Source of the DNA: Phocaeicola salanitronis DSM 18170
GTDB lineage: Bacteria > Bacteroidota > Bacteroidia > Bacteroidales > Bacteroidaceae
Assembly: GCF_000190575.1 (NCBI RefSeq)
Contig: NC_015164.1
Span: 558,001 to 622,000, forward strand
Direction: 5' to 3'
DNA length: 64,000 nucleotides
The stretch's first letter is position 1. Each line of letters opens with the position of its first letter. Made by a program: the position numbers and the translations under genes. Positions 14,139 through 38,191 of this stretch are shown piece by piece. The notes below the pieces were generated by a model. That model ran no database searches. It saw only the letters and a program-made list of their open reading frames with translations, and was not told where the DNA came from.

Positions 14139-14408
14139 GAACACAGAGGCGCAGAGGCACGGAGATTTTATTTGCGGTTTTACCATTTTCGAGGTACTAT
14201 TTCATATCAAAATAGTAAATGGTACATTTAAAAATATTTGAATATCCGCAAACATCCCATGTAGGGGCGTATCGCATACGCCCTGAAGACACCCACGTGG
14301 ATTAGTTGACGTATTCGGGCGTATGCGATACGCCCCTACATGGCAATTGGGTGAAATGCGGATATTCAAAAATAAAATATCCCTCTGTGTCTCCGTGCCT
14401 CTGTGTTC
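14139..14408. repeat. Three nested palindromes: family A, ATATCCGCA arms, family E
   Basis: Outermost family A arms start GAACACAGAGGCGCAGAGG at 14139 and end CCTCTGTGTTC at 14408. Inside are TTGAATATCCGCA and TGCGGATATTCAA (about 14238-14250 and 14359-14371). Innermost is a family E hairpin (14258-14342) with arms CATGTAGGGGCGTATCGCAT and its complement. A further small palindrome, TACCATTT...AAATGGTA, lies at about 14180-14223. The structure fills the gap between the divergent TPR and TtcA-like genes; the right arm ends eight bases before the TtcA-like ATG. Confidence 0.88.
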
Positions 14409-14415
14409 ACAAAGA

Positions 14416-15195
14416 ATGAAAAAAAACATGGGAAAAGAAGAAAAACTGATACATACCATCAACCGGAGGTTTAATAAAGGAGTGGTGGAATATGGGCTGA
14501 TAGACGAAGGCGACAAGATACTGGTGGGGCTTTCGGGAGGGAAAGACTCGCTGGCCCTGCTGGAATTGTTGGCAAAGCGTTCGCGCATTTACAAGCCGCG
14601 CTTTTCGGTGGTGGCGGCGCATGTCGTAATGTCGAATATCGCGTACGAGTCGGATACGGGCTACCTCCGTACATTCTCCGAGGCGTTGGGCGTGCCGTTC
14701 GTAGGCTATGAGGCTTCCTTCGACCCCTCAACCGACACCCGCAAGTCGCCCTGCTTCCTCTGCTCGTGGAACCGGCGGAAAGCATTGTTCACCGTGGCGA
14801 AAGAGCAGGGGTGCAACAAGATAGCCCTGGGGCATCATCAGGACGACATACTGGAAACCCTCCTGATGAACATGACGTTCCAGGGCGCCATCAGCACGAT
14901 GCCCCCGCGCCTGGTGATGCGCAAGTTCGACATGACGATTATCCGTCCGTTATGCCTGGTACACGAAGCAGAGCTGTCGGAGCTGGCACGCATCCGCGGA
15001 TATCATAAGCAGTTGAAGAATTGTCCTTATGAGAAAGATTCATACCGCACCGATATGAAGGAAGTGTTGCGCACCCTGGAGCGTATGAACCCCGAAGCCC
15101 GTTACAGCCTTTGGAACAGCATGACGAATGTTCAAGCGGATTTGCTTCCGGCTTATGCCGAACGCAGAGGCGCAAAGACGCGGAGTAATAATTGA
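14416..15195 (+). CDS. TtcA-family tRNA thiolation-like ATPase
   Basis: A PP-loop ATPase of about 259 residues. SGGKDSLALLELL is the ATP pyrophosphatase loop, PCFLCSWNRR holds the CxxC pair expected to bind an Fe-S cluster, GHHQDDILET is the second conserved box, and KNCPYEKDS gives a third Cys. TtcA makes 2-thiocytidine in tRNA; a related substrate is possible. ATG 14416 (or 14428) was chosen because upstream in-frame residues are translated repeat. The last dozen residues (AERRGAKTRSNN) are also encoded by a family A-like arm, so the native C-terminus has been replaced or extended by repeat DNA. Confidence 0.85.
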   Translation: MKKNMGKEEKLIHTINRRFNKGVVEYGLIDEGDKILVGLSGGKDSLALLELLAKRSRIYKPRFSVVAAHVVMSNIAYESDTGYLRTFSEALGVPFVGYEASFDPSTDTRKSPCFLCSWNRRKALFTVAKEQGCNKIALGHHQDDILETLLMNMTFQGAISTMPPRLVMRKFDMTIIRPLCLVHEAELSELARIRGYHKQLKNCPYEKDSYRTDMKEVLRTLERMNPEARYSLWNSMTNVQADLLPAYAERRGAKTRSNN

Positions 15196-15200
15196 AATCT

Positions 15201-15324
15201 GAACACAGAGGCACGGAGATACAGAGATATTTTTATTGAATCCGCAAACAGCCAATGTAGTGGCAATCAGGCAAATGCGGATATTAATTGTTAATTATTA
15301 ATTGTTAATTATTAATTGTTCAAG
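15201..15324. repeat. Single family A arm, ATCCGCA arms and AT-rich tandem
   Basis: A family A left arm (GAACACAGAGGCACGGAG) begins at 15201 with no matching right arm. AATCCGCAAAC and its partner AAATGCGGATATT follow, as in the element at 14139-14408 but without the family E hairpin. The remainder is a tandem of TTAATTATTAATTG units reaching the DUF486 start. It looks like a decayed nested element. Confidence 0.7.
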
Positions 15325-15708: not shown

Positions 15709-15818
15709 GAACACAGAGGCACGGAGACACAGAGCTTTTAAATTGACAATGGACAATTGACAATTATTTCCTCATCGGCATCGAAAATATCTCTCTGTGT
15801 CTTCGTGCCTCTGTGTTC
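15709..15818. repeat. Family A palindrome
   Basis: A 110-bp copy with arms GAACACAGAGGCACGGAGAC and, at the right, its near complement ending CTCTGTGTTC. The loop contains several AATTGACAATT-type units, the same motif that forms outer arms at 26147-26310. It fills the gap between the convergent DUF486 and DUF4858 genes. Confidence 0.88.
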
Positions 15819-16744: not shown

Positions 16745-16957
16745 TATAGTCATCAGAAATGGATTGCGAAAAATCCGTTAATCCTTTCTATTGAACACAG
16801 AGGCACAGAGGCACGGAGAAATAAATATATAGAGAAGTAAAGACCATAGAGCCAGACTTTTACTCTGTGAACTCTGTTCTCTCAAAAAATAAAGCTCTGT
16901 GTCTTTGTGTCTCTGTGTTCCATTCCATTTTTCGCAAACCAATTTTGTTTTACTATA
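16745..16957. repeat. MITE-like element with family A core (copy a)
   Basis: A 213-bp element. The left end starts TATAGT and includes ATTGCGAAAAA; the right end reads TTTTTCGCAAACCAATTTTG and then ACTATA, so the ends form an imperfect inverted repeat of about 30 bp. The core (16793-16920) is a family A palindrome with a distinctive loop containing GAACTCTGTTCTCTCAAA. The same layout and core recur at 28437-28651. Copies b and c share the ends but have a different core. Confidence 0.82.
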
Positions 16958-17896: not shown

Positions 17897-18171
17897 GAAC
17901 ACAGAGACACAGAGACACAGAGGGATATTTTATGAATCAATGTAGGGGCGGGGTTCGCCCGCTCGTATGCGCTTTGTCACGCCGGCATGACAAGCAAATC
18001 TGTTTTATTAGTAGAGACGTCACATTGTGGCGTCTCTGAATACATCCACAAAATACATTCATATACAGAACCATACCGCGATCAACCCTGCGGACGGGGA
18101 GACGCCACAATGTGACGTCTCTACTAAAATACCTCTAAATAATTCCTCCGTGTCTCCGTGTCTCTGTGTTC
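17897..18171. repeat. Family A palindrome containing a family C palindrome
   Basis: Outer family A arms begin at 17897 (GAACACAGAGACACAGAG) and end at 18171 (CTCTGTGTTC). Inside, 18010-18125 is a family C hairpin with arms AGTAGAGACGTCACATTGTG and its perfect complement. A partial family E arm (TGTAGGGGCGGGGTTCGCCC) lies between them at about 17940. The nested unit fills the gap between smalltalk and the HU-like gene. Confidence 0.88.
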
Positions 18172-24205: not shown

Positions 24206-24293
24206 GAACACAGAGACACGGAGGCACAGAGGGATATTTTTATTCTTTGTCCTCTCAAAAAATAAAACTCTGTGCCTTTGTGCCTCTGTGTTC
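24206..24293. repeat. Family A palindrome
   Basis: An 88-bp copy starting GAACACAGAGACACGGAGGC and ending CTCTGTGTTC, with the loop element TTGTCCTCTCAAAAAATAAA shared with other copies. The plus strand is open in the antirepressor frame across the whole repeat, but the start codon lies after it. Confidence 0.9.
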
Positions 24294-25584: not shown

Positions 25585-27984
25585 ATGTTCGGAATATCAA
25601 ATAACGTCAGATGCCGGGAGGTGCGCGAGTGCACGCCCGAGCTGTTTTGGAAGGCGGTCAGGTCGCCTTTGGTCGCTGATATCTGTGCGCAGATAGCGGA
25701 CGGACTGGAGAAAGTTCGTCGGGGAGAAATGGTAAAAGAAGATTACGAGACCTTGAAGGCGGGACTGAAGAAAAGGCTTCCGATTTTTACGCCGCATGCC
25801 ACGTTTAGGAACGGGCGGAGGCTGAATGCGGATGCGGTGCCTTCGGGGCTTTCGATGTACGATATCGACCATTTGCCCAATCCGCGCGAGTATTGGGTGG
25901 ATAAAAGTCAGGAACTTGCCGTAAAGGATGTGCTTCGGTTTGTAGTGCTGGCGCACATTACGCCCAGTACCGAGGGGCTGCGGTTGTTCTTCATTATCCC
26001 CGATGGGATGGACTTGGCAGGTGCGCAAAAGTGGATGTCGGAGCAGCTGGGGGACGCGAATTATGACCAGAGCGTGAAGGACTTGGCACGGTCTTCGTTC
26101 GTGGTGCCGGAGGATTATATTATTTATGTGGACGAGGATAGGCTTTTTTCAATTGACAATTGCCCTGCGGAAGACGGGACTGAAACAACCCATGTAGGGG
26201 CGTATCGCATACGCCCCGAAAACACCCACGTGGATGAGTTGGCGCATTCGGGCGTATGCGATACGCCCCTACAGGCGAAAAATGATAGTAAAGATAATTG
26301 TCAATTGAAATTCAAGGGCATCCCGTATGCCGACATCATCGCCCGTTGGTTTGCGCTTACGGGCGGCGAACCGGTGCAGGGAGAGCGCAACGACAAGTTG
26401 CATCGGCTGGCTTCGCACCTGCGGTATATCACGGATAATAACGAAGAAATTCTTTTACAGATTATGCCGAGGTATGGGCTGGGCGAAGAAGAAATGAAGG
26501 GGCTGATTCATTCGGCTTGTTCGGCGAAATGGTATTCGATGCCGAAGCTGATGAAAGAGGCATTGGATGGGGCGAAAATGAACACAGAGGCACAGAGCCA
26601 CGGAGATTCTTTTTCGGAGGACTCAACTAAAAAACTCTGTGCCTCTGCGTCTCTGTGTTCGATTCCTCCCGAATTGCCTTCCCGTCTGCCCAAACTCATT
26701 TCCTTGTTGGTCAAGAACACCCCCGACGTGTACAAGCCTGCCGTGGCTCATGCGGTGTTTCCACCGCTCGCAACACACCTGCATAAGGTAAGATTCCGTT
26801 ACATCGACAATGTGGAGCATGAAGCCACGCTGATGAACGTGCTTATGGCAGGTACGGGTGCCGGAAAAGATTGCATCTCGGAGCCGATAAACCGCATCAT
26901 GGCGGACATCCGGCGCAGGGACGAAGAAAACTTGCGTAGGGAAAGGGAATGGAAGAACGAGGTGAACTCGAAAGGCTCGAACAAGGACAAGAGGCAGCGT
27001 CCCGAGGGGCTTGTGATTCAGGAAATTGATGCGGATATGACCAATCCGGCGTTTGTACTCCGTACCGCCGAGGCGGAGGGGCATTTCCTGTACACGAAAC
27101 TGAACGAGATAGACCAGTTTGATGCCTTGCGCGGGTCGGGACGGGGAAACCAGCAGTTCCAGATTATGTGCCTGGCTTTCGACCCGGGGAACCGCTACGG
27201 GCAGACCCGTGTGGGGACGCAATCCATCACGGAGAAAGTCACGATTCGTTTCAACTGGAATGCCGCTACAACTATCCTGAAAGGGAAACGGTATTTCTCG
27301 CGTGTGCTGACGGACGGACCTATCTCGCGCATCAATTTCTGTACGATTCCGGAGCGTGAGATTGGGGCGGACATGCCGGTGTATGGCACGTATGATGCGG
27401 CGTTCGATGAAGAGTTGAGACCTTACATCGAGAACCTGAACCGTGCCACGGGGCTGGTGGATTGCCCGCAGGCTTTCCGGCTGGCGGAAAAGATGCGGAA
27501 GGAGAATGCCGAGTTCGCCACGCTCTCGCAAAGCCGTGTGTATGAGAACCTTTCGTTCCGCGCCAATGTAATTGCGTATCTCAAGGCTTGTGTGCTTTAT
27601 GTGGCAAACGGGGAGAAATGGGACAAGACGATAGAGGAGTTCGTGCGCTGGAGTTTCCAGTACGACATGTGGTGCAAGATGGAGTTTTTCGGGGAGGCGA
27701 TAGAGGAAGCAATGAAAGTAACAAACAGTTCTGATTCGAGGCATGGGCGGCATAACTTATTGGAGTTTTTGCCCGATGAATTTACCTTGCAAGACGCTAT
27801 CCGGTTACGGCAAAGCGTGGGGATGAATGCCGAGGGAACAAGACCCATGATTAACCAATGGATATGCAGGGGGTATATCACCCGAAACAAAATGACAAAT
27901 GACAAAATGACAAATGACAATTACAAGAAACTAAAATTCAGAAGCGATGGAATTGACATTAAAGCGAATCGCCAGGCGCGATAA
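25585..27984 (+). CDS. VirE_N/DUF3987-type protein with repeats inserted in frame
   Basis: A 799-residue protein. The N-terminal 200 residues match the BT4734-like VirE_N domain (MYDIDHLPNP, TPSTEGLRLFFIIPDG). A primase C-terminal-like stretch follows (GIPYADIIARWFALTGGEPVQGERNDKLH), then a DUF3987 ATPase part (MAGTGAGKDCI, FLYTKLNEIDQFDALRGSGRG). The Walker A-like motif ends in GKD rather than GKS/T. Two palindromic repeats are translated within it (26147-26310 and 26580-26660), and a tandem repeat (27889-27922) forms KMTNDKMTND near the C-terminus. The reading frame survives all three. The gene overlaps the DUF5675 start by 38 bp. Confidence 0.82.
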   Translation: MFGISNNVRCREVRECTPELFWKAVRSPLVADICAQIADGLEKVRRGEMVKEDYETLKAGLKKRLPIFTPHATFRNGRRLNADAVPSGLSMYDIDHLPNPREYWVDKSQELAVKDVLRFVVLAHITPSTEGLRLFFIIPDGMDLAGAQKWMSEQLGDANYDQSVKDLARSSFVVPEDYIIYVDEDRLFSIDNCPAEDGTETTHVGAYRIRPENTHVDELAHSGVCDTPLQAKNDSKDNCQLKFKGIPYADIIARWFALTGGEPVQGERNDKLHRLASHLRYITDNNEEILLQIMPRYGLGEEEMKGLIHSACSAKWYSMPKLMKEALDGAKMNTEAQSHGDSFSEDSTKKLCASASLCSIPPELPSRLPKLISLLVKNTPDVYKPAVAHAVFPPLATHLHKVRFRYIDNVEHEATLMNVLMAGTGAGKDCISEPINRIMADIRRRDEENLRREREWKNEVNSKGSNKDKRQRPEGLVIQEIDADMTNPAFVLRTAEAEGHFLYTKLNEIDQFDALRGSGRGNQQFQIMCLAFDPGNRYGQTRVGTQSITEKVTIRFNWNAATTILKGKRYFSRVLTDGPISRINFCTIPEREIGADMPVYGTYDAAFDEELRPYIENLNRATGLVDCPQAFRLAEKMRKENAEFATLSQSRVYENLSFRANVIAYLKACVLYVANGEKWDKTIEEFVRWSFQYDMWCKMEFFGEAIEEAMKVTNSSDSRHGRHNLLEFLPDEFTLQDAIRLRQSVGMNAEGTRPMINQWICRGYITRNKMTNDKMTNDNYKKLKFRSDGIDIKANRQAR
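26147..26310. repeat. Nested palindrome within the VirE-like gene (AATTGACAATT arms, family E core)
   Basis: Outer arms TTTCAATTGACAATT and AATTGTCAATTGAAA are complementary. The inner family E hairpin spans 26191-26273 with CATGTAGGGGCGTATCGCAT arms, nearly identical to the intergenic copy at 14258-14342. The translation reads through as an acidic linker followed by HVGAYRIRPENTH... between the VirE_N part and the next conserved block. Confidence 0.88.
26580..26660. repeat. Family A palindrome within the VirE-like gene
   Basis: An 81-bp copy starting GAACACAGAGGCACAGAGCC and ending CTCTGTGTTC. Its length is exactly 27 codons, and it encodes TEAQSHGDSFSEDS and KKLCASASLCS between two conserved blocks of the protein (KEALDGAKM before, PSRLPKLISLL after). 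Confidence 0.9.
27889..27922 (+). repeat. AAAATGACAAATGAC tandem in coding sequence
   Basis: Two 15-base units encode KMTND twice and run into a third partial unit. The motif is the same as in the palindrome arms at 21641-21841. It changes the C-terminal end of the VirE-like protein. Confidence 0.75.
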
Positions 27985-28388: not shown

Positions 28389-28681
28389 ATTGAAACGCGG
28401 ATTAACGCGGATTTTCGCGGAAAATAATTTATAAAATATAGTTAATCGGAAATGGATTGCGAAAAATCAGTGTGATTCTTTATCGAACACAGAGACGCAG
28501 AGACACGGAGAAATAATTATATAGAAAAAGCAAAGATCATAAAGCCAGCACTTTGCACCGTGAACTCTGTTCTCTCAAAGAAATAAAACTCTGTGCCTTT
28601 GTGTCTCTGTGTTCCAATCCATTTTTCGCAAACCAATTTTGTTCTACTATAATCTGCGTTAATCTGCGGAAATCCGCGTTT
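28389..28681. repeat. MITE-like copy d nested within a family D palindrome
   Basis: The outer family D arms are GAAACGCGGATTAACGCGGA (about 28391) and, at 28652-28681, CTGCGTTAATCTGCGG...CGCGTTTC. Inside them is MITE-like copy d (28437-28651, TATAGT...ACTATA ends), which in turn holds a family A core (28485-28614) closely matching that of copy a. Three levels of nesting are present. Confidence 0.85.
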
Positions 28682-28710: not shown

Positions 28711-28737
28711 GCTCTGTGCCTCCGTGTCTCTGTGTTC
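28711..28737. repeat. Single family A right arm next to mutB
   Basis: GCTCTGTGCCTCCGTGTCTC and the following TGTGTTC form a right arm without a left partner. It ends eight bases from the mutB stop codon, so mutB is bordered by family A arms on both sides. Confidence 0.75.
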
Positions 28738-28744
28738 AATCTCT

Positions 28745-30895
28745 TCACTCTTCGTTCTCAAGCAACAGTTCCATGACCTGGCATGCCGATTTTGCGACCG
28801 ATGTGCCCGGTCCGAAGATTGCCATTACGCCTGCCTGATAGAGGAAGTCGTAATCTTGCGGGGGGATGACTCCTCCGGCGAATACGAGGATGTCGTCGCG
28901 TCCCATCTTCTTCAGCTCGGCGATGATTTGCGGGATGAGGGTTTTGTGTCCTGCCGCGAGCGATGATACGCCTACCGCATGCACGTCGTTCTCTACCGCT
29001 TCGCGCGCCGCTTCCTCGGGCGTCTGGAACAGGGGTCCCATATCCACGTCGAACCCGCAATCGGCAAATCCGGTTGCTACCACTTTGGCTCCGCGGTCGT
29101 GTCCGTCCTGCCCCATTTTGGCAATCATGACACGCGGGCGCCGTCCTTCTCTCTTTGCAAACTCTTCGGTCAGTCCGCACGCCCGTGCGAAATCCGCATC
29201 CTTTTTACTTTCTGATGAATACACGCCTGAAATGGTTCTGATTACTGCTTTATATCTTCCTACTACTTTTTCGCACGCATCGGATATTTCGCCCAATGTG
29301 GCACGTACGCGGGCGGCTTCTACCGCCAGCTCCAGCAGGTTCCCCTTGCCGGTACGCACGCATTCGGTGATGGCTTCCAACGCTTTGCTGACTTCTGCCT
29401 GGTTTCGCCCTTCGCGCAGGCGGCGCAGGTTTTCTATCTGTTCCTGACGCACGGCGGTATTGTCCACTTCCAGGATGTCGATAGGGTCTTCTTTTTCCAG
29501 GCGGTATTTGTTGGTGCCCACGATAGTCTGTTCGCCTGAGTCGATGCGCGCCTGCGTGCGTGCGGCGGCTTCTTCGATGCGCATCTTGGGGATGCCGGTC
29601 TCGATGGCTTTTGCCATGCCGCCCAGTTTCTCTATTTCCTGAATGTGTTCCCAAGCCCGGTGCGCCAGTTCGTTGGTGAGCGATTCCACGTAGTAAGAGC
29701 CTGCCCACGGGTCGATTCCGCGGCAGATTTGTGTTTCTTCCTGGATGTAAATCTGTGTGTTGCGGGCGATACGTGCCGAGAAGTCGGTAGGCAAGGCAAT
29801 GGCTTCGTCCAAGGCGTTGGTGTGGAGGGACTGGGTGTGTCCGAGCGCCGCCGCCATGGCTTCGATGCAGGTACGGCCTACGTTATTGAACGGGTCTTGT
29901 TCGGTGAGCGACCAGCCCGAGGTTTGCGAGTGGGTTCGCAGGGCAAGCGACTTGGGGTTCTTCGGGTTGAATTGTTTTACAATCTTCGCCCAAAGCATGC
30001 GTGCGGCACGCATCTTGGCAATTTCCATGAAGTGGTTCATGCCGATGGCCCAGAAGAAGGAGAGGCGGGGAGCAAAGGCGTCGATATCGATTCCGGCGGC
30101 GATTCCGGCGCGGAGGTATTCCAGTCCGTCGGCAAGCGTGTATGCCAATTCGATATCTGCGGTGGCTCCGGCTTCCTGCATGTGGTATCCCGAGATGGAA
30201 ATAGAATTGAATTTCGGCATCTTTTGTGACGTATATTCGAAGATGTCCGAAATAATCTTCATGGAGAAGGCAGGCGGGTAAATGTAGGTGTTTCGCACCA
30301 TGAATTCTTTCAGGATGTCGTTCTGAATGGTGCCTGCCATTTCTTCCAGCTTGGCTCCCTGCTCCAGCCCCGCGTTGATGTAGAACGCCATAATGGGCAA
30401 TACGGCGCCGTTCATCGTCATGGAGACGGACATTTTATTCAAAGGGATGCCGTCGAACAGCACTTTCATGTTTTCGAGCGAGCAGATGGATACGCCCGCC
30501 TTGCCTACGTCTCCCACTACGCGCGGGTGGTCGGGGTCGTAGCCGCGGTGGGTCGGGAGGTCGAAGGCTACGGAAAGGCCTTTCTGTCCCGATGCCAGGT
30601 TCCGCCGGTAGAAGGCGTTCGACTCTTCGGCGGTGGAGAATCCGGCATACTGGCGGATGGTCCACGGCCGGAAGGCATACATCATCGAGTAGGGGCCCCG
30701 CAGGTAGGGAGGGATGCCTGCCGCATAGTTCAGGTGTTCCATTCCTTCGAGGTCTTCTTTGGTGTAGACCGGTTTCACTTGTATCTGTTCGGGGGTTTTC
30801 CAATTGGCGGCGATGCCATTGGCTTTTTGCCATTCCATTCCGTTTTGGGGATGGAATCCGGCATATATGTCTATGTTTCTAAAATTCGGTTTCAT
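28745..30895 (-). CDS. mutB: Methylmalonyl-CoA mutase large (catalytic) subunit
   Basis: A protein of about 716 residues. It interconverts succinyl-CoA and (R)-methylmalonyl-CoA with adenosylcobalamin, the step that leads to propionate in Bacteroides. The N-terminal TIM-barrel part shows [28 protein letters not shown] and [11 protein letters not shown]. The C-terminal B12 domain has the DxHxxG ligand motif in [14 protein letters not shown] and [12 protein letters not shown] 30895 was chosen because the upstream in-frame residues are translated repeat. It is downstream of mutA but separated from it by the GxxExxY element. Confidence 0.97.
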
Positions 30896-30915
30896 GGTTT
30901 TGCGTATTATTAATG

Positions 30916-31377
30916 GAACACAGAGGCGCAGAGACACAGAGTTTTATATTTCCCCGTTAATCTTCCGGCGTATCCCGTCTTTTAATACAGGGACATTGAA
31001 GTTGATGAGCAAGCCCAATTTCTTGTTGGCAAGTTTCAAATAAGTGACAAGCTGTACTTCATGTATGTCTTTCAGTTCCTCTACTGCTTTTAATTCTACT
31101 ATCACGATGTCTTCTACCAATAAGTCTATGCGGAACTCTTTGTCAAGTTTTTCTCCTTTATAATAAAGAGGCAATGCAATTTGGCTTTCAACGTGATATC
31201 CTCTATTTTCTAATTCTGTAATAAGACACGCTTCGTAGACACATTCCAATAAGCCGGGACCAAGCTCTCTGTGTACTTCAATGGCTGCGCCGATAATGGC
31301 CCGGCTTAGCATATTATATATATTGTAATCGGATAAACTCATAAAATAGACCTTTGTGCCTCCGTGTCTCTGTGTTC
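30916..31377. mobile_element. Family A repeat carrying a GxxExxY gene between its arms
   Basis: The left arm GAACACAGAGGCGCAGAGAC begins at 30916 and runs to the gene stop codon at 30944. The right arm lies from just upstream of the start codon (31342) to CTCTGTGTTC at 31377. The gene therefore fills the position occupied by a short loop in all other copies. The 462-bp unit separates mutA from mutB, which in other Bacteroides are normally neighbours. No target duplication is obvious. Confidence 0.75.
30944..31342 (-). CDS. GxxExxY protein (PDDEXK_3 nuclease-like family)
   Basis: A 132-residue protein. The family motif appears as LGPGLLECVYEACL. A PD-(D/E)xK-like core is visible in FRIDLLVEDIVIVELKAVEEL (Asp, then E-x-K), and HEVQLVTYLKL fits the QxxxY helix. 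All motif residues look intact, so nuclease activity is conceivable, though no function is firmly known for the family. Stop and start codons abut the two family A arms, and the gene lies in the mutA-mutB gap on the same strand. From memory, GxxExxY proteins in databases often carry N-terminal residues that look like translated family A arms. Confidence 0.9.
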   Translation of the reverse strand: MSLSDYNIYNMLSRAIIGAAIEVHRELGPGLLECVYEACLITELENRGYHVESQIALPLYYKGEKLDKEFRIDLLVEDIVIVELKAVEELKDIHEVQLVTYLKLANKKLGLLINFNVPVLKDGIRRKINGEI

Positions 31378-31382
31378 AAAAA

Positions 31383-33248
31383 TTATAATAATTGTTTGTT
31401 AAACTCGCGCAAGGTTTCCAAGACGTTGCAACGGACGTGGATGAAGTGTCCGATGCCGGCGGCTTTCAGCTCTTCCATGCATGCGGGGGCACCTGCCACG
31501 ATGAACATGGCGCGGCCTGCCAACGCCCGGAAAGCCGGGACGGCATATTGCGCGTATTCGTCATCGCTGGAGCAGAGCACTACGATGTCTGCCTTTGCTT
31601 TCATGGCTGCATCAATGCCTTCTTCTACCGTTGCGAAGCCCAGGTTGTCGATGACTTCGTATCCGGCACATGCCAGGAAATTGCACGAGAATTGGGCGCG
31701 TGCCTGGCGCATGGCAAGGTTGCCGATAGTGAGCATGAATGCTTTCGGGCGTTTCCCGGAATGTTCCGTTTCGAGGCGGAGCGCTTCGAATTCGCTTGCG
31801 GCGCGGGCGGTCTCTAATTTGGCGAACGACGCTTCCTCTTCGTGCGGATGGTCCTTGCCTCCGCATCCGCATACATGTTCTAACGGGGCTTTATCGCCTG
31901 CCCGTTCGGTGAAATTGGGGTATTGGTTGGTTCCTAACAGGATTTCCTTGCGGCGTGATACGGCTTCACGGCGTGCCTTGTTGCTTTGGTTGACGGCATT
32001 TTGCACGCTTTCGTTCTGAATGGCTTTTACCATACCGCCTTCGTCTTCGGTCTGCAGGAAAAGGTTCCATGCTTCCTTGGCGATGGATACGGTAAGGTTT
32101 TCTATGTAATACGAACCTCCGGCGGGGTCAACGATGCGGTTGAAATGCGATTCCTCCTTTAATAATAATTGCTGGTTGCGTGCCAGGCGTTCCGAGAACT
32201 CATTGGGCGTTTCGTATACCGAATCGAAGGGGGTGACGGTCATGGAGTCTACTCCGGCAATAGCGGCGCTCATCGCTTCGGTTTGCGAGCGGAGCAGGTT
32301 GACGTATGAGTCGAATAAAGTCATGTTGAATGTAGAAGTGGTGGCGTGTACGTGCATCTGGCACGCATTGTCCTCTTCCGGCTGGTAAGCTTTCACGATG
32401 TCTGCCCATAGCATGCGTGCGGCACGGAACTTGGCGATTTCCATGAAATAGTTGGAGCTGATGCCGAAATTGAACTTGATTTTCCGGGCGGCAAGGCCGG
32501 CGGGGATGCCGGCTTCTGCCAGGCGGCTCAGGTATTCGTTCCCCCATGCCAGGGCGTATCCCAGCTCCTGGTAGATATAGGCTCCCGAGTTGTTCAGGCG
32601 GAGCGCGTCAACGCCGATGCAGCGGAAGTGGGGCCACTCTGCCAGTGCGTTTACCACTTCTGAAGCCAAACCGATAATCGGGCTCAGGTCTTTCCCTTTC
32701 TGGAGCATCTTGCTGATAGGGTCGAAGTTGACCGAACCGTGTATGTCCTGAGGGCCGTATCCTTTTTCTTTGAAATAGGCGGATAATAATTGTGCCAGTT
32801 GTACGGTATGCCGTTGGCATGTGGTAAAGTTCAGTTCGATGCAATCGCAATGGATGTCTTTCAGCAGTGTGTCGAGGACTTCCCGGCTGACATCCTTTCC
32901 TTTTATGTGGAAACCTAACGAGTCTATTCCTTTATTCAGGAGGCCGAGGGCTTTGCGGTTGGCTTCCTCGGGATTTTCCACCCGGATGTCCTGGCGGATG
33001 TACCAAGTGTTGTCATCCTTTTTGTTGCCTCTCAGATAGGGGAACTCTCCGGGAAGGGTTTCGATGGTTTTCAGCCCTTTTAAATCTTCTTGGCGGTAGA
33101 AAGGGTTTACCTTGAACCCTTCGTTGGTTTTCCATACTAATTTCTTTTCATAATCAGCTCCTTTCAAGTCGGCCTGGATTTTGTCCATCCATTCTTGCGC
33201 CGATACTTCCGGAAAATCAGAAAAGAGTTTTTCTTTTTTATCTGCCAT
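31383..33248 (-). CDS. mutA: Methylmalonyl-CoA mutase small subunit
   Basis: A 621-residue partner subunit of MutB. It has the mutase fold ([46 protein letters not shown]) and a degenerate C-terminal B12-like domain (LTIGNLAMRQARAQFSCNFL) in which the DxHxxG cobalamin motif is absent, as expected for the non-catalytic subunit. It lies upstream of mutB on the same strand. The GxxExxY element between them may affect cotranscription. Confidence 0.96.
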   Translation of the reverse strand: MADKKEKLFSDFPEVSAQEWMDKIQADLKGADYEKKLVWKTNEGFKVNPFYRQEDLKGLKTIETLPGEFPYLRGNKKDDNTWYIRQDIRVENPEEANRKALGLLNKGIDSLGFHIKGKDVSREVLDTLLKDIHCDCIELNFTTCQRHTVQLAQLLSAYFKEKGYGPQDIHGSVNFDPISKMLQKGKDLSPIIGLASEVVNALAEWPHFRCIGVDALRLNNSGAYIYQELGYALAWGNEYLSRLAEAGIPAGLAARKIKFNFGISSNYFMEIAKFRAARMLWADIVKAYQPEEDNACQMHVHATTSTFNMTLFDSYVNLLRSQTEAMSAAIAGVDSMTVTPFDSVYETPNEFSERLARNQQLLLKEESHFNRIVDPAGGSYYIENLTVSIAKEAWNLFLQTEDEGGMVKAIQNESVQNAVNQSNKARREAVSRRKEILLGTNQYPNFTERAGDKAPLEHVCGCGGKDHPHEEEASFAKLETARAASEFEALRLETEHSGKRPKAFMLTIGNLAMRQARAQFSCNFLACAGYEVIDNLGFATVEEGIDAAMKAKADIVVLCSSDDEYAQYAVPAFRALAGRAMFIVAGAPACMEELKAAGIGHFIHVRCNVLETLREFNKQLL

Positions 33249-35908: not shown

Positions 35909-35977
35909 GAACACAGAGGCACAGAGACACAGAGAATTTCTTTAAATAATACTCTGTGTCTTTGTGTCTCTGTGTTC
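35909..35977. repeat. Family A palindrome (short loop)
   Basis: A 69-bp copy with nearly complete arm pairing: GAACACAGAGGCACAGAGAC...CTCTGTGTTC. It fills the gap between the HAD gene and the peptidase gene downstream end. Confidence 0.9.
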
Positions 35978-38125: not shown

Positions 38126-38191
38126 GAACACAATGGCACAGAGACGCAGAGGAAAAAATAACAAACTCTGTGTCTCCGTGTCCCTGTGTTC
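38126..38191. repeat. Family A palindrome, last copy in the window
   Basis: A 66-bp copy with arms GAACACAATGGCACAGAGAC and GTCTCCGTGTCCCTGTGTTC. It lies in the 106-bp gap between the peptidase and lipoprotein genes. No family A copy is seen to the right of it. Confidence 0.88.

Follow-up and report, generated by a model that had tools for sequence, protein, structure and literature searches.

A GxxExxY nuclease-like gene encoded between the arms of a dispersed palindromic repeat and its probable role as the resident enzyme of that repeat

In the genome of Phocaeicola salanitronis DSM 18170 (G000), a gene encoding a nuclease-like protein of the GxxExxY family lies between two inverted copies of a short repeat arm that is dispersed over the chromosome (family A). 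Our analysis shows that inverted arms frame GxxExxY genes in many other bacteria and in archaea, that the arms follow the lineage of the protein, and that genomes with a given GxxExxY gene tend to be the richest in repeats whose arms match it. Selection on the gene is purifying; the gene has resided vertically at an old site and has been lost, with scars, in some relatives. We consider it probable that a low-activity, REPIN-like family of palindromes has GxxExxY as its resident nuclease, which would bind and cut the arms of these palindromes and support their copying.

The window analyzed here is a stretch of 64,000 nucleotides (Table 1). As the original prediction stated, a complete GxxExxY gene of 132 codons is encoded between inverted arms; the left arm is 2 bp from its stop codon, and the start codon is 9 bp from the right arm. 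The two arms are mutually inverted copies of GAACACAGAG-RCRCRRAG-RCRCRGAG, each consisting of three 8-nt units (the motif CRCNRAG plus a spacer). The gene and its arms are flanked on both sides by methylmalonyl-CoA mutase subunit genes, which, by the usual naming, we take to be mutB (large subunit) and mutA (small subunit). The large-subunit frame extends without a stop codon beyond its ATG, reaching upstream to the left arm (30895-30937), and automatic start calls may add an arm-derived N terminus there.

Table 1. Repeat arms, repeat units, and neighboring genes in the window (window positions)
Feature	Position	Strand	Remark
Gene-free unit, 270 bp	14139..14408	.	
Unpaired arm	15160..15185	+	
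Unpaired arm	15201..15226	+	
Gene-free unit, 110 bp	15709..15818	.	
Gene-free unit, 128 bp	16793..16920	.	Within TATAGT...ACTATA element
Gene-free unit, 275 bp	17897..18171	.	
Gene-free unit, 88 bp	24206..24293	.	
Gene-free unit, 81 bp	26580..26660	.	In frame in BT4734-like gene
Gene-free unit, 130 bp	28485..28614	.	Within TATAGT...ACTATA element
Unpaired arm	28712..28737	-	
Methylmalonyl-CoA mutase large-subunit gene	28745..30894	-	Source of species tree
Left arm	30916..30941	+	Three units, GAA-CACAGAG-G-CGCAGAG-A-CACAGAG; sequence GAACACAGAGGCGCAGAGACACAGAG
GxxExxY/PDDEXK_3 nuclease-like gene, 132 aa	30944..31342	-	Profile matches; model pLDDT 96
Right arm, inverted copy of left arm	31352..31377	-	Reverse complement GAACACAGAGACACGGAGGCACAAAG
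Methylmalonyl-CoA mutase small-subunit gene	31383..33248	-	
Gene-free unit, 69 bp	35909..35977	.	
Gene-free unit, 66 bp	38126..38191	.	

The window protein belongs to the family by both of its profiles, scoring 155.2 bits against TIGR04256 (GxxExxY; cutoff, 35) and 152 bits against PF13366 (PDDEXK_3; cutoff, 22). In an alignment of 70 proteins (the window protein and those of 69 of the 80 loci described below), D73, E83, K85, Q97, and Y101 are invariant, the first three being the catalytic D and ExK; in 16 more diverse proteins D73 and E83 are again invariant, while K85 is nearly, not fully, conserved. These residues lie in a predicted PD-(D/E)XK fold (pLDDT 96), to which Cas4 appears to be nearest and restriction enzymes and Holliday-junction resolvases also seem close; a sequence search for a relative with a solved structure found none. 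Cas4 profiles stay below their cutoffs (PF01930, 14.9 versus 22.7 bits; TIGR00372, 12.9 versus 65 bits), and the profile search of the window protein, which gave PDDEXK_3 and this sub-cutoff Cas4 match only, found no Y1 HUH transposase domain. GxxExxY differs from Cas4 and the RecB-type nucleases in being a single domain of about 125 aa. Whereas Cas4 has four cysteines for an iron-sulfur cluster, GxxExxY has one nearly invariant cysteine (C39) only, and no cas gene recurs among the ORF families within 4 kb of the 80 loci. Purifying selection on the gene is evident from dN/dS values of 0, 0.05, 0.06, 0.07, and 0.10 in five of nine gene pairs, two of these values being rough (dS above 1); the other four pairs are saturated in dS.

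To survey the family, we used the best 80 of at least 567 confirmed GxxExxY matches, a set that leans to GPGLLE-type proteins and covers Bacteroidota, Planctomycetota, Verrucomicrobiota, Acidobacteriota, Chloroflexota, Proteobacteria, Methanosarcinales, Methanophagales, and others; arm tests used 79 loci, the sole cyanobacterium being left out for its short flank. At a threshold of at least 14 for the best inverted match across the gene (250 bp on each side), inverted arms were found at 60 of the 79 loci, including all three archaeal ones, but at only 26 of 3,160 random positions in the same loci and at 24 of 1,474 other mechanically called ORFs of 90 to 180 aa. The predicted enrichment of arms around GxxExxY genes elsewhere is thus confirmed against controls below 2%. 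Inward-pointing tandem units on both sides (two CRCNRAG units 1 to 2 nt apart on each side) were found at 48 of the 79 loci versus 3 of 7,900 random positions, and outward-pointing ones at 3 of the 79 versus 0 of 7,900. The threshold is also reached by 22 of 27 framed loci from relatives in the window's own group and by 14 of 21 further genes of multicopy genomes; across these sets, a fifth to a third of the genes (19 of the 79) remain below it.

Other than the mutase genes, no ORF family recurs in five or more of the 80 loci within 4 kb (blastp, 1e-8), a screen in which families confined to mutase-bearing loci would merge with the mutase genes. GxxExxY had no match in 50,697 phage records and 8 matches in 72,556 plasmid records. 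Published work reports an expansion of PF13366 in Arctic microalgae (PMC9756366) and lists a GxxExxY gene in an algal virus (PMC12085832). In the open-access literature, PF13366/TIGR04256 is mentioned few times, with no assigned function found; the sole bacterial occurrence of the arm strings is an uncommented primer, and on palindromes with nucleases nothing was found beyond REP/HUH work.

Arm similarity follows protein similarity across the 80 loci (best of at least 567; Spearman 0.32, 0 of 2,000 Mantel permutations), and also for pairs with a relative protein score below 0.55 (0.21; 6 of 2,000). At 42 named loci, the own arm recurs in the own flanks better than do the arms of other loci (mean, 12.58 versus 10.23; 0 of 5,000), and a close gene-free copy of it is present in the fetched flanks of 8 of the 42, versus 3.4% for other loci's arms.

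The same specificity is seen at the level of genomes. The four genomes in which GxxExxY separates the mutase genes contain 218, 189, 40, and 50 arms of the first type (type A), where the reversed control gave 24, 6, 2, and 2 matches; elsewhere among 60 relatives, such arms number 13 in G033 and at most 3 in each of the other 55. A second GxxExxY in G000 (51% identical) has type B arms, AACGCAGATT-TTCGCAGATT-AACGCAAATT; there are 146 such arms in G000 and 114 in G001, whose second GxxExxY has them as well, and at most 5 in each of the 58 others. Type C arms, ACCACAGATT-N-CACAGATT, occur in 15 of the 60 genomes, including G008 (19 arms), G003 (11), G033 (40), and G029 (22), where the gene carries type C arms. 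As exceptions, G000 and G001 hold 89 and 107 type C arms although the homologous gene has related type B arms, and type C arms exist without a detected GxxExxY gene, e.g., in G030 (16) and G019 (12). Because 30 of the 48 GxxExxY matches among the relatives were fetched and 27 framed, the lack of a matching gene elsewhere is not strict.

A wider survey covered 392 Bacteroidota genomes, each at least 90% complete, with a pattern that finds CACAGAG-led arms only. GxxExxY is present in 194 of these genomes and the CACAGAG-led triple in 39 (reversed control, 4 matches in 3 genomes). The gene is found in 37 of the 39 arm-bearing genomes and in 157 of the 353 others (Fisher P of about 2e-10), so the repeats are not equally common without GxxExxY, and their predicted tie to the family is upheld. 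Within taxonomic families, using lists compiled by hand for the 17 families with arms, the 37 co-occurrences compare with 29.1 expected, and 1 of 20,000 permutations reaches 37. The two arm-bearing genomes without a detected gene are G215 (5 arms) and G419 (2 arms).

In the 4.31-Mb genome of G000, arms with at most two mismatches occur 105 times on the forward and 106 times on the reverse strand, and the reversed control pattern is absent; a pattern one base shorter gave 218 arms versus 24 control matches. Units were surveyed in 464 kb, i.e., the window and 20 stretches of 20 kb picked around listed arms. This sample holds 50 convergent paired units of 65 to 1,814 bp, as well as 16 further arm-like matches, some of which are shifted matches of paired arms. 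Unrelated flanks surround 33 of the 50 pairs (median unit, 96 bp), whereas the other 17 are carried within a larger dispersed element that has TATAGT...ACTATA ends (e.g., window positions 16793-16920; L174, L176, and L180); the copy number in G000 is partly due to this element, not to the nuclease. In the original prediction, the gene-free copies would be derivatives of the gene-bearing unit, but 17 of the 50 sampled ones ride inside another element. The arms are AT-flanked and mostly intergenic, and only 6 of the 50 units lie mostly within an ORF of at least 150 aa, versus 801 of 1,000 random placements. Among about 100 units in G000, one has GxxExxY between these arms. A 1.8-kb unit (L188 5195-7008; G000:C1:3890195) was rejected as a second gene-bearing unit, as its loop holds a 453-aa ORF that is transposase-like by eye and apparently represents an insertion sequence that landed between the arms.

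Of 160 extracted arms, 93 conform to the strict CRCNRAG pattern, others carrying variants such as CACAGATT or ACATAAG. In the 93 strict-motif arms, mostly with three units each, units are spaced by 8 nt (72 cases), 9 nt (84), or 10 nt (13), and the T content of the inward-reading strand is 2.5%. Because they are almost T-free on one strand, the arms are nearly stop-free in all six frames (a stop triplet is present in 8 of 100 arms of G000), and this composition accounts for arm-like protein ends and for in-frame units inside genes. GxxExxY proteins with arm-like N termini, mentioned in the original prediction, were indeed seen (e.g., L095, L101, L134, and L154). In L057 and L058, the GxxExxY frames have C-terminal tails that resemble a translated arm.

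Single arms hardly fold (mean minimum free energy, -0.63 kcal/mol; lowest, -6.5 kcal/mol; RNA parameters), and the letters GTAG or CGTC occur in 8 of 66 arms on either strand. Within a gene-free unit, the two arms match each other no more closely than randomly chosen arms do (3.54 versus 3.45 mismatches; 28 units), which speaks against a strict hairpin requirement, and no covariation between them was found. At the 33 units with unrelated flanks, direct repeats of 2 to 9 bp are no commoner than in shuffled flank pairs, giving no sign of target duplication.

The gene has a long history at its site. In 11 of the 80 loci (best of at least 567), GxxExxY lies between the small- and large-subunit mutase genes; these loci belong to Phocaeicola, Bacteroides, Prevotella, Tannerella, Alkalitalea, Sunxiuqinia, and other Bacteroidota metagenome-assembled genomes, and their mutase large subunits are 31 to 60% identical to that of the window. 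By eye, each of the 11 has clear arms on either side, and 7 of them reach the threshold. When three relatives are added (14 loci, not fully independent, as L091 and G008 are apparently one organism), the two arms are seen to change together, with a within-locus identity of 0.813 versus 0.737 in shuffled pairs (0 of 5,000). Within the window's genus, G000, G001, G003, and G008 carry the unit at this site, and the other 15 of the 19 readable junctions lack it; by eye, G018 retains one decayed arm at the site and G014 a weaker trace. The large-subunit tree places {G000, G001}, {G003, G008} with G012, and {G018, G014, G013} within one group of 11 species (88/99) without settling their inner order. 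The scars and the placement of carriers and noncarriers are most simply read as loss from an ancestral state. Three members of those clades in which no GxxExxY gene was detected, G012, G013, and G018, retain just 3, 1, and 2 arms in their whole genomes, in keeping with a decay of the repeats once the gene is gone. A recent insertion between the mutase genes, as the prediction of a unit splitting the pair implied, is ruled out by the same arrangement across Bacteroidota: the site is old and vertically kept, and the empty junctions among close relatives are best read as losses.

Paralogues within one genome, compared in 20 stretches that represent part of the matches in multicopy genomes, are 39 to 70% identical, and the arms found beside them differ from one paralogue to another. 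This divergence suggests that the gene-bearing unit does not move about, and the gene itself seems not to be spreading. The near-identical pairs, L286 (G257) and L287 (G151), are adjacent tandem duplicates (97 and 99%); arm-like repeats surround each pair and also separate its two copies. For the gene-free units, we infer spread at present or in the past. The number of type A arms varies within a single genus, some species having more than 200 and others none. Insertion polymorphism was sought between G003 and G008, which are 98% identical over the stretch compared (40 of 63 candidates scored). Of 17 G008 units tested, 10 were not placeable, and the 7 with both flanks placed are all occupied in G003. 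Of the predicted role as mobilizing or maintaining enzyme of family A, the association with the arms stands, through arm enrichment and co-occurrence; the gene unit seems immobile, and mobilization of the gene-free units is what we infer.

These observations are consistent with the following scheme. One gene-carrying palindrome would be kept vertically at a fixed site, with its GxxExxY protein as the resident enzyme of a REPIN-like system and the many gene-free copies as its satellites. The nuclease may recognize the tandem CRCNRAG units of an arm and cut or nick there, perhaps when both arms extrude as a hairpin or cruciform. Such a cut could allow very rare copying of short units into new intergenic sites by host replication or repair; alternatively, nuclease action might keep existing units in place. 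Arms and enzyme would coevolve, giving each GxxExxY lineage its own repeat family, and repeats would decay once the gene is lost. Several results count against this resident-nuclease scheme: (i) no movement was caught, the seven placeable units all being occupied in the sister genome; (ii) the 33 units show no target duplication, and 19 of the 79 loci (best 80 of at least 567) lie below the arm threshold; (iii) arms occur without a detected gene in G215 and G419 and, for type C, in G030 and G019, and G000 and G001 are rich in type C arms while their gene has type B arms; and (iv) K85 is not fully conserved among the more diverse proteins.

Several of the same facts bear on a host-serving role, in which the nuclease would read the dispersed arms as chromosomal sites (for stalled forks, recombination, regulation, or immunity) without copying them, the gene-near arms being its own control sites. 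Purifying selection in all five measurable pairs, retention at one site across Bacteroidota, the units common to sister genomes, the avoidance of long ORFs, and a predicted fold apparently near Cas4, restriction enzymes, and Holliday-junction resolvases would all suit such a role. However, arm numbers that run from more than 200 to none within a genus, and the many species that have neither gene nor repeats, are odd for a host function, and gene-free copies of the own arm in the flanks of 8 of the 42 named loci also count against it; we regard this alternative as possible but unlikely. Quite improbable, in our judgment, is a homing-type selfish gene, whose nuclease would cut gene-free palindromes so that repair between homologous arms copies the gene in. 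The gene does sit exactly where gene-free copies have their loop, and its predicted fold is that of a nuclease, but among the genes read there are no dispersed near-identical copies, the only close pairs being the adjacent duplicates of G257 and G151, and a single one of the roughly 100 G000 units holds the gene with these arms. A passenger scenario, with the repeats moved by another transposase and GxxExxY trapped between arms as cargo, would agree with the units riding in the TATAGT...ACTATA element and with the insertion sequence-like gene in one unit; we hold this to be highly improbable, given that the gene and lineage-specific arms stay together across phyla and archaea and that, besides the mutase genes, no other ORF family recurs within 4 kb in five or more of the 80 loci. 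Ordinary terminators or chance repeats, to which the mostly intergenic, AT-flanked position of the arms might point, can practically be dismissed, being contradicted by the controls and by a motif common across phyla, convergent orientation, wide spacing over a gene, and hundreds of copies.

Taking GxxExxY as the resident nuclease, the system appears to work most like RAYT-REPIN, with cutting and copying assumed by analogy. For RAYT-REPIN, published work describes an enzyme gene beside the repeat, lineage-specific repeats, distinct enzyme copies, long vertical inheritance, rarity on mobile vectors, single arms as remnants, and fewer repeats where the gene is missing (PMC3116915, PMC8049555). 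GxxExxY is like RAYT (TnpA-REP) in all of these: its gene is flanked by a dispersed repeat, the repeats are lineage specific, several enzymes in one genome are distinct, the genes are single copy and vertically inherited (among the genes read, with the two tandem duplicates as exceptions) and rare or absent on plasmids, repeats are fewer without the gene, and single arms occur as remnants. The two differ in that the GxxExxY gene is inside one unit, between its two arms; in the enzyme, which is a Y1 HUH transposase in RAYT and a predicted PD-(D/E)XK protein here; and in the repeat. REPs are palindromes tagged with GTAG or CGTC (PMC3733652), whereas GxxExxY arms are nearly T-free tandem CRCNRAG-type units that hardly fold singly. 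Since enzyme fold and repeat design differ, the system is not a member of RAYT-REPIN, and neither its enzyme nor its repeat has a homologue in a known enzyme-repeat pair; judged by life style alone, it may be classed with RAYT-REPIN. Like miniature inverted-repeat transposable elements (MITEs), the gene-free units are short, noncoding inverted-repeat elements in many copies; unlike MITEs, they show no target duplication (33 units), have an internal tandem structure, and are associated with an enzyme outside the known transposase families. With somewhat less confidence than for the resident role itself, we lean toward a pan-prokaryotic class of enzyme and palindrome that does not share descent with RAYT-REPIN. 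In this class, a minimal Cas4-like nuclease would replicate or maintain dispersed repeats of tandem CRCNRAG-type units, each nuclease lineage reading a unit of its own.

If so, PF13366 would gain a function, and a share of the unannotated palindromes found in Bacteroidota, Planctomycetota, Verrucomicrobiota, Acidobacteriota, and certain archaea would be explained. About half of the Bacteroidota genomes sampled (194 of 392) contain PF13366/TIGR04256, and the link provides both enzyme and repeats with a testable role. It also suggests that the life style known from RAYT-REPIN has more than one origin, here with an unrelated enzyme. The arm beside each gene would be a natural prediction of the recognition sequence of that nuclease. 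Recognizing arms would also help to correct gene models, in which they can be read as spurious protein ends.

A few further observations concern individual units. The 81-bp unit at 26580-26660 adds 27 codons to a variable linker of the BT4734-like ORF 25585-27984. No clean empty site was found for it: the linker of homologues in relatives is too variable for alignment, and viral contigs gave no relative, with one weak phage match. At this point, the paralogue L256 has no such unit but carries another palindromic insert; residues 199 to 232 match many other places in G000, G001, G003, and G008, looking like another dispersed repeat. The unit motif also occurs in longer tandem arrays, with 14 same-strand matches at G250:C1:3186762 (the listed ones overlapping) and 3 overlapping matches at G097:C1:134725. 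Finally, one unit is nested between the arms of another family A unit (L190 10082-10567; G000:C1:155082-155567).
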